A stretch of 64,000 bases of DNA from Spirosoma sp. (lineage in GTDB: Bacteria > Bacteroidota > Bacteroidia > Cytophagales > Spirosomataceae). The notes under the pieces were generated by a model, which worked only from the letters and a program-made list of their open reading frames with translations, was not told where the DNA came from and did not search any database. Shown here one piece after another: positions 9,143 to 64,000 of this stretch (within the stretch, counting starts at the first letter, position 1; each line of letters begins with the position of its first letter). The stretch lies in the NCBI RefSeq assembly GCF_026391055.1, contig NZ_JAPLET010000030.1, positions 248,001-312,000 on the forward strand, given 5' to 3'. Position numbers and translations under genes: made by a program.

Positions 9143-9205
9143 GTACCCACGGGCTTCAGCCCGTGTTTCATCTCAACATAAACACGGGCTGAAGCCCGTG
9201 GGTAC
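9143..9205. repeat. Perfect 26-bp inverted repeat with nested palindromes
   Basis: The arm 9143-9168 (GTACCCACGGGCTTCAGCCC plus GTGTTT) is the exact reverse complement of 9180-9205, with an 11-nt spacer. Each arm is itself a near-palindrome (CACGGGCT-TC-AGCCCGTG), so the element can fold as one long hairpin or two small ones. It starts 2 nt after the GNAT stop. It may act as a terminator or be a REP/REPIN-like dispersed repeat. Confidence 0.85.
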
Positions 9206-11203: not shown

Positions 11204-11227
11204 GATTCATCCATTCTGTTTCCCCTA

Positions 11228-11262
11228 AACCTATAAGGTATCTGAGACCTTATAGGTTTTTT
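11228..11262 (+). terminator. Rho-independent terminator
   Basis: The perfect 12-bp stem AACCTATAAGGT/ACCTTATAGGTT with a 7-nt loop is followed by TTTT. It lies 25 bp after the isochorismatase-like gene. Confidence 0.88.
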
Positions 11263-32406: not shown

Positions 32407-33711
32407 ATGATCGCACTCCACTGGCTGCAACTGGGCTGTCTGCTCCTGACAACGGTTGGCCCCGCCACCACCCGCCCCCATCATGAACCGAACGAAGTAC
32501 GGGTTCCGCTTGGCGGCAATAGCTGGGTGACCAATGCACCATCGTTGGCGGCTACTGTCTCGAAAGAGGGCCTGACAAACTGGTCGAGCCCGGCCAGTAC
32601 GGTCGATACGTACGTGCGGGTTGCCCAAACGGGCACGCTGCATCTGTCCATCAACCTGCGCGTTCCCACCGGTAAGAGCCGATTGCGGATCACTTTGCTG
32701 GGAAAGTCGAAGGACATCGATGTGCAGGGTAGCACATTTATAGATTACCCGCTCGGCCAGTGGACGATTTCGAAAGCGGGTTATGTGAAACTGACGTTGC
32801 AGGGAATCAGCAAGACTGGCGCAACCTACGCCGACGTAACCAATTTTGGTATCAGTGGCCCAGTCGTCGATGAGCAAACGGCTTTTGTCCGCAACAACGA
32901 CGGCAATTTTTTCTACTGGGGTCGGCGCGGGCCGTCGGTGCATCTGCGCTACGCCGTTCCCGAGGGTATCGACGCCGAATGGTTCTATAATGAGATAACC
33001 GTTCCCAAAGGGAATGACATCATCGGGTCATATTACATGGCCAATGGCTTTGGCGAAGGGTATTTCGGGATGCAGGTCAACTCACCCACCGAACGCCGAA
33101 TCTTGTTTTCTGTTTGGAGTCCGTTTCAGACCGATAACCCCAGCCAGATTCCGGCCGACCAGAAAATTCTGCTTGATCGCAAGGGCGAGCAGGTTGTCAC
33201 GAATGAGTTTGGCAACGAGGGTTCAGGCGGGCAGAGCTACCTGCGCTACAACTGGGTAGCCGGACAAACTTACCGATTTCTGCTGCATGGCAAACCCGAT
33301 GCAGGCGGGTACACAGCCTATACTGCCTATTTTATGCCAGCGGATGGCGCTCGCTGGCAACTGATCGCCAGTTTTAAACGCCCCAAAACCACAACCTATC
33401 TTAAGTCACTTTATTCCTTTCTGGAAAATTTCACACCCGAAACGGGCAATGTGCAGCGGGAAGTCGAATTCTCAAACCAATGGGTCAGGAGCAAAGACGG
33501 AAACTGGCTGGAGTTAACCCAGGCGCAGTTCACGGGCGACAACACCGCGAAGAAAGCGTACCGGATGGACTTTGCCGGTGGGCTTGCTCAGAATCAGCGT
33601 TTCTTTCTGCGTAACTGCGGTTTCTTCGATATGTACACGCCCCTTAAATCTGATTATACGAGACCGGCTCAACATCAGGCACCGACGATAGCGCTGGACC
33701 AGCTTCCCTGA
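32407..33711 (+). CDS. DUF5077/DUF3472-domain exported protein
   Basis: This 434-residue protein starts with an export signal-like segment (ALHWLQLGCLLLTTVGPATT). Residues about 30-155 match the DUF5077 beta-sandwich pattern (VRVPLGGNSWVTNAPSL, DTYVRVAQTGTLHLSINLRV). Residues about 165-420 match DUF3472 (VHLRYAVPEGIDAEWFYNEI, GSYYMANGFGEGYFGMQVNS, YRFLLHGKPDAGGYTAYTAY). Such proteins recur in Bacteroidota polysaccharide loci and are presumed carbohydrate-active or carbohydrate-binding. It is the last gene of the operator-controlled unit. Function is unproven. Confidence 0.83.
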   Translation: MIALHWLQLGCLLLTTVGPATTRPHHEPNEVRVPLGGNSWVTNAPSLAATVSKEGLTNWSSPASTVDTYVRVAQTGTLHLSINLRVPTGKSRLRITLLGKSKDIDVQGSTFIDYPLGQWTISKAGYVKLTLQGISKTGATYADVTNFGISGPVVDEQTAFVRNNDGNFFYWGRRGPSVHLRYAVPEGIDAEWFYNEITVPKGNDIIGSYYMANGFGEGYFGMQVNSPTERRILFSVWSPFQTDNPSQIPADQKILLDRKGEQVVTNEFGNEGSGGQSYLRYNWVAGQTYRFLLHGKPDAGGYTAYTAYFMPADGARWQLIASFKRPKTTTYLKSLYSFLENFTPETGNVQREVEFSNQWVRSKDGNWLELTQAQFTGDNTAKKAYRMDFAGGLAQNQRFFLRNCGFFDMYTPLKSDYTRPAQHQAPTIALDQLP

Positions 33712-33713
33712 AT

Positions 33714-33783
33714 GCATACTGGTTTATTTACAAGAAGCCCGATTCTGATCAGAATCGGGCTTCTTGTAAATAAACCAGTATGC
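33714..33783. terminator. Perfect 70-bp palindrome, bidirectional terminator candidate
   Basis: The 35-bp half beginning GCATACTGGTTTATTTACAA is followed directly by its exact reverse complement, with centre TGATCA and no spacer. It starts 2 nt after the DUF3472 stop and ends 2 nt before the stop of the convergent TMTC-like gene, filling the whole gap. A bidirectional terminator is the simplest role. In RNA the hairpin has the GC-rich part (GAAGCCCGATTCTGA) near the apex. Confidence 0.9.
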
Positions 33784-33785
33784 CG

Positions 33786-35807
33786 TTAATACTTATTGAT
33801 AATTGAATCGGGCAGCGCTTGTACGTCGATTCCCGTGGCCTTCATCAGATTCATGCGGTTGTTCTGCCCATCGACGTAGGCGGGGTTCACCACCATCGAG
33901 CGATTGTAGTAATACGATGCCAGTTCCAGTTTCTGCCGGTTATTCTGCGCGATTCCTTCCCCTTGATAAATTACACCCAGATTGTTGTATGCGGGGGCAT
34001 AAGCGTTGGCCGCCCGGATCGTCTGCTTGTAATAATATTTGGCCGAGTCGACATTAGGCGTAATTTTCTGAAACACGTACGCCATCGAGAAGTACGCTTC
34101 ACCGAAGCTTGGGTAGATCCGGGTCGATTCCTGAAGATGGTCGAGTGCCCAGCGCCCGTGTTTGTTGGCATGAGCAATGTTTGTATCAATAAGCACCTGT
34201 GCTTTTTTGATTTGCTCAGGCGTTGGCCTGGGCTTAATAGCGTTCGTTGCGTTGGCAATGGAATCGGCTTTGGCGCGGTCTTTCAACCCTTTTTCAATCC
34301 ACTCATTAGCTACGTGCCGCTGTACCTGACAGCTGTTGGGTGCATATGGGAGTGCTGAGTTGAAAAGAACGAAGTTATTTTCCCAGTCGCGGTTGCGCTC
34401 AACGGTTTTGAACGAGTACAACCCCGTTACAACCGCCATCAGCCCCAGCAATGGCATGTAGCGAACCAGACGTAACTGGGTTGGGGATTCATTCGCGTCG
34501 ACCGGATTGCGTACCAGTAACTTCTGCAATGCCCAGACCAGTACAAAGGCAAAACCCATGACGGCGGCATACGTAAAGCGTTCAGCGAAAATACCTCCTC
34601 GAATCCAGATGAAGCCAAGTCCCGGCGCCATGGTAACAAAGAACCAGAAAATACCGAATCCCCAAAGTGTGCGTTTAACAAACCCTTTCCAGGTGAGCCA
34701 GATTAACCCCACAAAGGTGAAGAAACCCGCCCAGGTCAGCAAATCGCCCTTACCCCCCGATGGAATCACGTTGTACGAATAATCATACACCAGCGGATGC
34801 GGAACAATCAGCAGTCGGATGTAGTATTCCAGAAACTTGAACATGGTCGACTTTTGGGTCTTCTCAATAGCATACGGATAATTGGCCCAGTCGACGGGGG
34901 GCGTACCGCTGAGGGTACCGATCATTTTCTGTTTCTGGTAAAAGAACAGAGCCGCCACAATCAGGAATGGCCATAGGCTAATGAGCGAATTCCAGAGATT
35001 ACGGCGGGCAAACCAGTACTGCATGGCCGGAATCAGTGCCAGGCTAACGATGGACGATTCTTTGGAGAGAAAAGCCAGATACAGGGAGGCACAAGCCCCG
35101 ATTATCCAACCCTGCTGATTCGTTTCCAGATACCGCCAGTAGGACAGCAGCATGAGCGCAATAAACAGAAAGCTCAGTATTTCGTCGCGTCCTTTAATAT
35201 TGGCAACAATTTCGGTGTGCAGCGGGTGCGCCACGAAAACCAGCCCGATCAGGAATGCCGTAATGGTTTGATTGGTAAGCCATTTCTGCAGCAGTATACC
35301 CACTACCAGACCCGTAAGGCCGTACAGGCCCGCATTGATCATGTGGCTGATATTCGGATTATCCTTAAAATACTCCTGCTCCAACGCAAACGTAATCAAG
35401 GATAAAGGCCGGTAGTAACCCAGCGAAATATTACTAAAGTGCCAGAACTCGGTGCGAAGCAGGTCTGGAATACCGGCAATACCTTTTTTCACGAACAGAT
35501 TCTGCCCCACAGCGGCTATATCGTCTAGTGCATACTGATGCCCAAAAGTATTGATATACAGGGCAACACCCAGCAAAGCCAGTACAACGGGAGGCCACCA
35601 TTTAACGTACCGTTCCTCAATGGGCAAGTCAGTCTTCGGGTCAGTTGATTTTGGTGGCTGGGTACGTACCGATGGGCGCTGGCCGGGTTCGGTGGTGTGG
35701 GGCCGACCGGTACTGCCAGCATTCGTCAAAGCAGGTTTAGGAGTAACCGCTCTTTCCTGGGGCGGCCGAGGGTTCTCGTAGCCCTGTGATTGCTTCTTTT
35801 TAGCCAT
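33786..35807 (-). CDS. Multi-pass membrane protein with C-terminal TPRs (TMTC/PMT-like)
   Basis: This 673-residue protein has a charged, Pro-rich cytoplasmic N-terminus, then about ten hydrophobic segments starting WWPPVVLALLGVALYINTF, and a C-terminal tetratricopeptide part (about 540-660; EAYFSMAYVFQKI, YAPAYNNLGVIYQGEG). The loop after the first membrane segment (YALDDIAAVGQNLFV, GYYRPLSLITFALEQ) resembles GT-C glycosyltransferases of the TMTC/protein-mannosyltransferase type, including the acidic DD pair. It may glycosylate exported proteins or lipids. It is convergent with the glycan locus and divergent from the endonuclease. Confidence 0.82.
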   Translation of the reverse strand: MAKKKQSQGYENPRPPQERAVTPKPALTNAGSTGRPHTTEPGQRPSVRTQPPKSTDPKTDLPIEERYVKWWPPVVLALLGVALYINTFGHQYALDDIAAVGQNLFVKKGIAGIPDLLRTEFWHFSNISLGYYRPLSLITFALEQEYFKDNPNISHMINAGLYGLTGLVVGILLQKWLTNQTITAFLIGLVFVAHPLHTEIVANIKGRDEILSFLFIALMLLSYWRYLETNQQGWIIGACASLYLAFLSKESSIVSLALIPAMQYWFARRNLWNSLISLWPFLIVAALFFYQKQKMIGTLSGTPPVDWANYPYAIEKTQKSTMFKFLEYYIRLLIVPHPLVYDYSYNVIPSGGKGDLLTWAGFFTFVGLIWLTWKGFVKRTLWGFGIFWFFVTMAPGLGFIWIRGGIFAERFTYAAVMGFAFVLVWALQKLLVRNPVDANESPTQLRLVRYMPLLGLMAVVTGLYSFKTVERNRDWENNFVLFNSALPYAPNSCQVQRHVANEWIEKGLKDRAKADSIANATNAIKPRPTPEQIKKAQVLIDTNIAHANKHGRWALDHLQESTRIYPSFGEAYFSMAYVFQKITPNVDSAKYYYKQTIRAANAYAPAYNNLGVIYQGEGIAQNNRQKLELASYYYNRSMVVNPAYVDGQNNRMNLMKATGIDVQALPDSIINKY

Positions 35808-61974: not shown

Positions 61975-63246
61975 CTATTTATAGTCATCCGCTTTTGGCG
62001 AACCGGCAATTAATTTCAGGGCTTCGTCCATGTAAATCTCGGCCGTGTTTTCACCCAGACTGGTCCGGCTGATGTACTCGTACCGTTTAAAGCTGTTGAA
62101 GTCTACTTTCGTGAGCATATACCCGAAAGCATCGTTCGTCAGGCCAAATAACAAAGGCACATGGGCGTGCATGTGTCGCTTTAGGTAATACCCGATGTTC
62201 GGCAGGGCTTCGCCGGGAATGGTCAGTACCTGTGCGCTGCCAATGTTGAGGAGGTTCACTTGAGCCACCACCTTATCCCCGGCGGCAATGGGGTACTTCA
62301 ACGGTGAGTTCTTGACGATGTACTTCATCACCTCCGACTCGATGGGAAATGTAATGTTACGGGTGGTACAGAATAAGGTAGGGTTCGATTGCGGCTCAAC
62401 GGGAGTTACGATACGCAGGGCTTCGTCGGCCAGCAGCTCGCCAATGCGGATACATTCTTCCCAGGTATTGGCTTCTTTGCCATTCTCCCGCCGGTTGTCG
62501 GCCGTGACCATGCCGCCCTGAGCGCCGTTCATGAACAGGGCCACACCCCCCACTTTCGACTCGATTCGCTGACAAAGCGGACCACATAAATCCGGACTGA
62601 GGATACCTCGGTCCGAGCCGATCACCTCCGGATGAATGGCGTAGTTGACCAGCGTTACAATGGGCTTTCCGGTATTCGTGCCAGATGTAGCAATAGCTTG
62701 TATGACCCCACAGCGAGGGTCATATAACGCCGGAGCATAATAGTTGTAGGCAATTTGCCCTTTGGCATCGCCAACGGCAATTTTCAGGGTGGCCGGACTT
62801 GCCGTTGCCAGTGCTTCATTAACGGCATCGGCAATGGCGTGTACGCATTTGTCCAGATACGGAAGGTCGGCAAACGACTCCCCTTTTTCGTTCGGGAAGC
62901 CATAGGCATCCGGGCCACTGTGGGTGTGCGTAGCACCGATCAGGATATTTTCGGGTGGAATTCCCTTGATGAGCGCCCTCGATTTGTTACCCAGTACCGA
63001 TGGCCAGCCCAGGTTATCGACGCTGACGATGGCAACGCGCGTACTCCCCCGTTCGAAAACACAGGCCCGGACAAATAACTCCCCTTTTGCCTCGACCGCT
63101 TTTTTGGGCGTACCAATTCCGCCGGAAACGGGCAGCAACGGGTTGGGCGTAATCAGCCGGACAGCCGCCCCTACCTTAAAGACTTGGGCGGAAACGGAAA
63201 CGACCGTCAGGCCGAAGAATAGAAGCGCAACGACGATTTTTTTCAT
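61975..63246 (-). CDS. Neutral/alkaline ceramidase-like (N-terminal domain) exported protein
   Basis: This 423-residue protein has a signal peptide (IVVALLFFGLTVVSVSAQ). It shows the neutral-ceramidase N-terminal domain pattern: FKVGAAVRLITPNPLLPVSG, VSVDNLGW, the zinc motif ILIGATHTHSGPDAYGF and VNYAIHPEVIGSDRGILSPD with FMNGAQGG. It lacks the C-terminal ceramidase domain, so ceramide hydrolysis is uncertain; related short proteins occur in Bacteroidota glycan loci. It lies between the SusD-like and PqaA-like genes on the same strand. Confidence 0.86.
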   Translation of the reverse strand: MKKIVVALLFFGLTVVSVSAQVFKVGAAVRLITPNPLLPVSGGIGTPKKAVEAKGELFVRACVFERGSTRVAIVSVDNLGWPSVLGNKSRALIKGIPPENILIGATHTHSGPDAYGFPNEKGESFADLPYLDKCVHAIADAVNEALATASPATLKIAVGDAKGQIAYNYYAPALYDPRCGVIQAIATSGTNTGKPIVTLVNYAIHPEVIGSDRGILSPDLCGPLCQRIESKVGGVALFMNGAQGGMVTADNRRENGKEANTWEECIRIGELLADEALRIVTPVEPQSNPTLFCTTRNITFPIESEVMKYIVKNSPLKYPIAAGDKVVAQVNLLNIGSAQVLTIPGEALPNIGYYLKRHMHAHVPLLFGLTNDAFGYMLTKVDFNSFKRYEYISRTSLGENTAEIYMDEALKLIAGSPKADDYK

Positions 63247-63262: not shown

Positions 63263-63338
63263 GGTGGTTTTTTCGGTGTTCTTGTATGGTGTCAGTTTCT
63301 CAAAGCTGATACCATACAAGAACACCGAAAAAACCACC
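63263..63338. repeat. 33-bp inverted repeat between the susD-like and ceramidase-like genes
   Basis: The arms 63263-63295 (GGTGGTTTTTTCGGTGTTCT...) and 63306-63338 are complementary except for one G-U position, with a 10-nt loop. It lies 16 bp after the SusD-like stop, on the same strand as the next gene. It is a strong hairpin that could terminate or attenuate transcription between susD and the hydrolase genes, with T-runs within the stem. Confidence 0.85.
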
Positions 63339-63353
63339 ACAGAAACAAAAAAT

Positions 63354-64000
63354 CTACCAGGGTTTACCGGTTCCCTGAACCAGCCAGGGTTTCGACCAGG
63401 CACTGTTTTTCCCGTCGGATTGCGAGTTTGTGGTCACCTCCAGTTTATCGACGGCCGCACCGGCATTGGCTTTGTTGAGGTTCAGCTCATCCCGCATATA
63501 GTAAAACCGCAGCGGCAGGGCTTTCCGTTTGGCAGCAACACCCGCCGACAGGGCCGGTAAGCCCGTTCGCCGGTAGTCGAACCAGGCCTCCGTGGCGTTG
63601 GTCCAGCTCGCAATCCATTTCTGCCCGATTATCTGTGCCTGTGTACCCTCGTAAGCGACCCCTTTCTGCATAATAAACGTGGGATAGCTGCTGGCTACTC
63701 CCCAGGTAGTGAGCGATGCTTTAACCCCGGCTTCGTACTGCGTTTTGGCATCTCCGGCAGCCCAGCCTTTCAGGGCCGCTTCGGCCAGAATAAACCGCAC
63801 TTCAGCCGCCGACATCAGCCGGGCTTTCAGCAACGAGCCTTTGGCCTGCATGTATATCTCATTCAGATACGAAACGTGCGGATTAACCGAGGTCTGGCCC
63901 GGTGTCGGGTTGAAGTTATAGCCCGATGGCAGCTGCGATACGCTGGGGGGTAACCCTACGTAATTTGGGTCGGTATCGATGGGTGTTGCGCCCACTTTGT
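63354..64000 (-). CDS. SusD/RagB-like lipoprotein, C-terminal part (N-terminus beyond window)
   Basis: The frame is open to the window edge; the track Met is really a GTG inside KVGATPIDTDPNYV, so the start lies off-window. About 215 residues are present: the late SusD-like domain with LKARLMSAAEVRFILAEAAL, GVASSYPTFIMQKGVAYEG, IGQKWIASWTNATEAWFDYRRTGLP and the ending VTTNSQSDGKN. This pattern matches SusD-like group 2. A susC-like gene should precede it off-window. It is followed on the same strand by the ceramidase-like and PqaA-like genes, a second PUL-like cluster. Confidence 0.9.
   Translation of the reverse strand, partial: KVGATPIDTDPNYVGLPPSVSQLPSGYNFNPTPGQTSVNPHVSYLNEIYMQAKGSLLKARLMSAAEVRFILAEAALKGWAAGDAKTQYEAGVKASLTTWGVASSYPTFIMQKGVAYEGTQAQIIGQKWIASWTNATEAWFDYRRTGLPALSAGVAAKRKALPLRFYYMRDELNLNKANAGAAVDKLEVTTNSQSDGKNSAWSKPWLVQGTGKPW

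Follow-up and report, generated by a model that had tools for sequence, protein, structure and literature searches.

The locus considered here raises the question of how a long, perfectly self-complementary sequence comes to fill the space between two convergent genes, and whether its persistence there calls for a special explanation. It lies in a 64,000-nucleotide stretch of DNA from Spirosoma sp. (the window; coordinates in Table 1). The initial annotation had described a loop-free 70-bp perfect palindrome lying 2 bp from each of two convergent stop codons, and this description proved exact on re-checking. The two 35-bp arms (GCATACTGGTTTATTTACAAGAAGCCCGATTCTGA and TCAGAATCGGGCTTCTTGTAAATAAACCAGTATGC) are 100% complementary with a spacer of 0 nt; the palindrome begins 2 bp past the TGA of the plus-strand gene (33709-33711) and ends 2 bp short of the stop of the minus-strand gene (33786-33788, read on the minus strand), within a stop-to-stop gap of 74 bp. 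Arms in five Markov-shuffled windows reached at most 9-11 bp, so that an arm of 35 bp is far beyond chance. As RNA, a 101-nt segment is predicted to fold into a hairpin of 33 bp with a 4-nt loop (-57.1 kcal/mol), and the z-score of the palindrome segment is -15.

Table 1. Features of the convergent gap and its flanking genes, in window positions.
Feature	Position	Strand	Basis
Convergent gene, 434 aa, DUF5077 + DUF3472 (Pfam)	32407..33711	+	Pfam match
Palindrome, spacer-less, 35+35	33714..33783	none	Inverted-repeat check and RNA fold
Derived arm on the plus-gene side, copied from the donor flank as its exact reverse complement	33714..33731	+	Alignment of relatives
Ancestral core, bidirectional terminator-like hairpin AAGAAGCCCGATTCTGATCAGAATCGGGCTTCTT	33732..33765	none	Alignment with G010, S. 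fluviale and G016
Donor arm, minus-gene side, shared ancestral flank GCATACTGGTTTATTTAC (- strand)	33766..33783	-	Alignment of relatives
Convergent gene, 673 aa, weak PMT_2 match	33786..35807	-	Below Pfam's cut-off

The minus-strand gene has a homologue in all 36 Spirosoma genomes searched, its product being 98% identical in G010, the closest relative, and 94% identical in S. fluviale, and the convergent pair is kept in three relatives (G010, S. fluviale and G016). Comparing the gap among close relatives, as the initial annotation had suggested, returned a hairpin at the same site in all three, although the long 70-bp form is absent from their gaps. The homologous stem in the alignment of the four sequences is AAAAAGCCC...GGGCTTTTT; G010 carries ATAAAAAGCCCGATTCT-ACATC-AGAATCGGGCTTTTTAT, with a perfect stem of 17 bp, S. 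fluviale carries CATATAAAAAGCCCGGTTCTGGATCAGAATCGGGCTTTTTATATG, with near-perfect arms of 21 bp, and G016 has a hairpin that is related to the focal core but shorter. By their sequence, these hairpins look like ordinary bidirectional terminators, with the characteristic GC-rich stem, A-tract and T-tract between two stops. The focal hairpin is likewise a GC-rich stable stem-loop directly past both convergent stop codons, but it differs from bidirectional intrinsic terminators in its 35-bp stem, in being loop-free as DNA and in a degraded T-tract (TTCTTGT adjoining the GC core, vs TTTTTAT in the relatives), and it went uncalled in a simple terminator scan. The initial proposal of a bidirectional terminator probably holds for the core, which is terminator-like in the three relatives, although the state of the T-tract and the result of the scan count against it. 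A terminator function of the palindrome is probable, and the outer arms are unnecessary for it.

The origin of these outer arms can be traced because the relatives differ on the two sides of the stem. Their stop-to-stop gaps measure 116 bp (G010), 230 bp (S. fluviale) and 106 bp (G016), vs 74 bp here, and the only flank that they have in common with the focal sequence is that of the minus-gene side (GGTTTA..TA adjoining the stem), whereas their plus-gene-side flanks are longer and unrelated to the focal plus-side sequence. The G010 counterpart of the donor flank, GCATATCGGTTTATTTAT, is identical at 15 of 18 positions. Assuming that the G010 contig ends join as a circle, the minus-gene-side arm matches G010 at 30/35 positions and the plus-gene-side arm at 22/35. 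In agreement with this asymmetry, the 25 plus-side bases outside the GC stem match the reverse complement of the G010 minus-side flank at 20/25 positions, vs 10/25 for the in-register flank on the plus side of G010 itself. Against G010, then, both comparisons identify the plus side as the copy and the minus side as the donor. The outer flank can be aligned at high identity in G010 only; in ungapped comparison, the identity of the donor flank is 16/25 in S. fluviale and 9/25 in G016. One arm is thus ancestral, and the other is a reverse-complement copy of it that displaces about 50 bp or more of the unrelated intergenic DNA seen in the relatives, as expected of fold-back copying. Within the stem there are two differences from G010 (ACAAGAAGCCC / GGGCTTCTTGT), both symmetrical, as copying would yield. 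As for microhomology at the return of the strand, TTCAGGG here can be matched to TTTAGGG in the native flank of G010 or to TTTCAG, read from the other G010 flank as reverse complement; both fit, so that the site of return is ambiguous.

Taken with the hairpin that pre-exists in the relatives, these observations make it likely that the bidirectional terminator-like hairpin of two convergent genes was lengthened by fold-back (template-switch) DNA synthesis. In the ancestral gap there would have been a hairpin of about 17-21 bp with an A-tract and a T-tract, and stems such as those of G010 and S. fluviale could have primed the switch. While this DNA was being replicated, the nascent strand of minus-gene sense would have folded back at the hairpin, extended its 3' end by copying at least 18 nt of its own upstream flank, and then rejoined the original template beside the stop codon of the plus gene, dropping about 50 bp. 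The two stem substitutions could have been made symmetrical by the same type of event or by repair of mismatched arms. Both the template switch as the molecular step and the strand on which it took place are deduced from the aligned sequences. Hairpins are known to be created and mended by template switching (PMC8794818): Monttinen and Loytynoja (2022) described neighbouring stretches copied as reverse complements to give a perfect stem in one event, and stems kept perfect by two-sided changes. Their cases were RNA genes (microRNA, rRNA), whereas the present one is a bacterial intergenic terminator-like hairpin from a genus in which arms reach 30-41 bp. The step proposed here is also that of the quasipalindrome-associated template-switch mutations studied in E. 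coli (e.g., PMC7202029), where an imperfect inverted repeat lets the nascent strand fold back and copy one arm; those mutations were scored at reporter loci, whereas the present footprints are read by comparing species, and the copied stretch reaches well past the original stem. Terminator and fold-back are therefore not alternatives, each being right in part.

The initial annotation had also raised a fold-back duplication produced at a replication or assembly event; the outer arms do look like a replication copy, but the assembly version fares poorly. An assembly or amplification artefact (a fold-back chimera) would account for the exactness of the arms, and the genome is a draft of 31 contigs. 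However, the locus is in the middle of a 672,202-bp contig (C27:281714-281783), about 50 bp of the other flank are missing where the sequence is joined between the two stop codons, and long hairpins, equally long ones among them, occur at similar rates in single-contig relatives. The mid-contig position, the join right past a stop and the equal hairpins of those relatives make an artefact very unlikely.

Alternatively, compensatory substitutions could have lengthened the stem step by step, with selection favouring a strong RNA hairpin or terminator and no copying involved. This would be in line with the conserved position of the hairpin at the locus and with the location of hairpins at gene 3' ends. 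Homologous hairpins compared between this genome and G010 bear on the point: at 30 paired positions both bases had changed and again formed a Watson-Crick pair, where about one such case would be expected by our own estimate if changes were independent, an excess that speaks for copying; another 45 had changed on one side, 13 of them giving the G-T pairs that stepwise compensation would pass through. Selection on an RNA hairpin can also produce two-sided changes and may explain part of them, so that the counts alone do not prove copying. On the other hand, the stem has gained 18 perfect pairs that match one of the ancestral flanks and has lost the second flank, which would need many coordinated changes, and a 17-bp stem with a T-tract already suffices for a terminator. 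Additionally, a second hairpin (C27:245359-245434, arms of 37 bp) includes in its left arm the end of a coding sequence with its stop codon (LNLEVDY*), codons that G010 has once, adjoining a different hairpin. S. fluviale is unusable for polarising this case, its two flanks lying far apart there, and the best reading is a second copying event anchored by coding sequence. Stepwise compensation is thus improbable, and fold-back copying is favoured because the relatives keep the minus-side flank while differing on the plus side and because the second case includes a coding end; the location of long hairpins at gene 3' ends is also in its favour. A further candidate for one-sided copying or mending of an arm lies at window positions 9143-9205, where perfect 26-bp arms flank an 11-nt spacer and match G010 at 24/26 and 15/26 positions.

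Another possible origin is a mobile or dispersed palindrome of REP or MITE type that inserted here. The genome does contain dispersed palindromic cores, among them CGCCATATCNNNNNGATATGGCG, found in 17 places with at most 2 mismatches. The focal palindrome, however, is single-copy in the 7.98-Mb genome, even allowing 3 mismatches across its central 34 bp, and its core and one flank are common to the relatives at this locus. Given this uniqueness, an origin from a dispersed repeat was rejected, and insertion of such an element has a very slight probability. The CGCCATATCNNNNNGATATGGCG core, which is a REP-like family with symmetric variants, lies at C27:348911, C27:370232 and 15 other places, and at least two of its copies centre longer hairpins with locus-specific outer arms (C27:370202-370284 and C27:348898-348946). 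The palindrome AAACCTATAAGGT...ACCTTATAGGTTT, at window positions 11227-11259 and also in the homologous convergent gap of G016 (L008, just past the stop of the minus-gene homologue), is possibly another dispersed palindromic repeat.

The very stable hairpin, together with sub-threshold Rfam hits, could also suggest a protein-binding site or a structural RNA (e.g., a regulatory sRNA) maintained as a perfect palindrome. These hits are mostly to microRNA models far below gathering scores, as any long hairpin gives, and an Rfam family was rejected on this ground; the palindrome beyond its core is not conserved between sister species, so that such a maintained function is extremely improbable. Apart from probably ending the transcription that arrives from either side, the palindrome by itself is of no special consequence.

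As for persistence, the palindromes that are lethal in E. coli are those longer than roughly 150 bp; at 70 bp, the survival of the focal palindrome is not paradoxical. A search for SbcCD genes, also suggested at the outset, found SbcD over the NCBIfam cut-off in this genome, adjoined by an SbcC-like gene (C20) below the SbcC cut-off, which 0 of 59 genomes of the order reach; SbcC is probably encoded as well. An SbcD match over cut-off is missing in 10 of the 36 Spirosoma genomes, including single-contig G001, G004, G008 and G012. The density of hairpins with arms of at least 20 bp is 50/Mb in G008, 25 in G001 and 5 in both G004 and G012, all without sbcD, and 35/Mb in G016 and 40 in G018, which have it. 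Loss of SbcCD was therefore rejected as an explanation, given that this genome has SbcD and probably SbcC and that the density of hairpins is not tied to the presence of sbcD. The initial view that the palindrome should be unstable, and its persistence notable, is weak, since sampled Spirosoma genomes carry such hairpins at about 25 per Mb, whether or not they have sbcD.

This figure comes from nine Spirosoma genomes (58 hairpins with arms of at least 20 bp in 2.28 Mb), counted, as elsewhere, in parts of genomes. In 464 kb of the present genome there are 11 perfect inverted repeats whose arms measure at least 20 bp and whose spacer is at most 12, the arms reaching 41 bp (others of 37, 34 and 31 bp). 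Six other genomes of the order gave 4 hairpins in 0.40 Mb, a difference that is no more than suggestive of enrichment in Spirosoma (p = 0.07), and 200 kb sampled from E. coli K-12 gave none. Bacterial transcript ends are enriched in perfect inverted repeats (PMC13155455). The long hairpins of Spirosoma are located at gene 3' ends and are enriched in convergent gaps, which, by crude open-reading-frame calls, hold 24 of 51 placed intergenic hairpins vs 15% of intergenic bases, divergent gaps holding 4/51 vs 28%. In several cases the hairpin overlaps the stop codons or is separated from them by only a few bases (C27:37370, C27:245359, G008 L129:9334, G016 L151:16246), so that nearly filling the gap is a recurrent arrangement and the focal palindrome, with many similar hairpins in the genus, is tidy but no oddity. 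Another inverted repeat, at window positions 63263-63338, has 36-bp arms (94%) and a 4-nt spacer, between minus-strand ORFs 61975-63246 and 63354-63998. Among the titles and abstracts that a literature search on Spirosoma and palindromes returned, none deals with this hairpin class, which is weak evidence of absence.

More tentatively, Spirosoma might undergo unusually frequent fold-back template switching at gene-end hairpins, giving a genome-wide class of perfect hairpins (about 100-200 per genome by extrapolation) that extends into flanks and even the ends of coding sequences and stays perfect through copying between arms, in spite of an SbcCD nuclease; this is less likely than not. The focal palindrome would itself be a clean, polarised bacterial example of a long perfect hairpin arising by copying and not by stepwise compensation, and, with many more candidate cases in the genus, the rate of fold-back and its strand bias at gene ends should be measurable from genomes alone.
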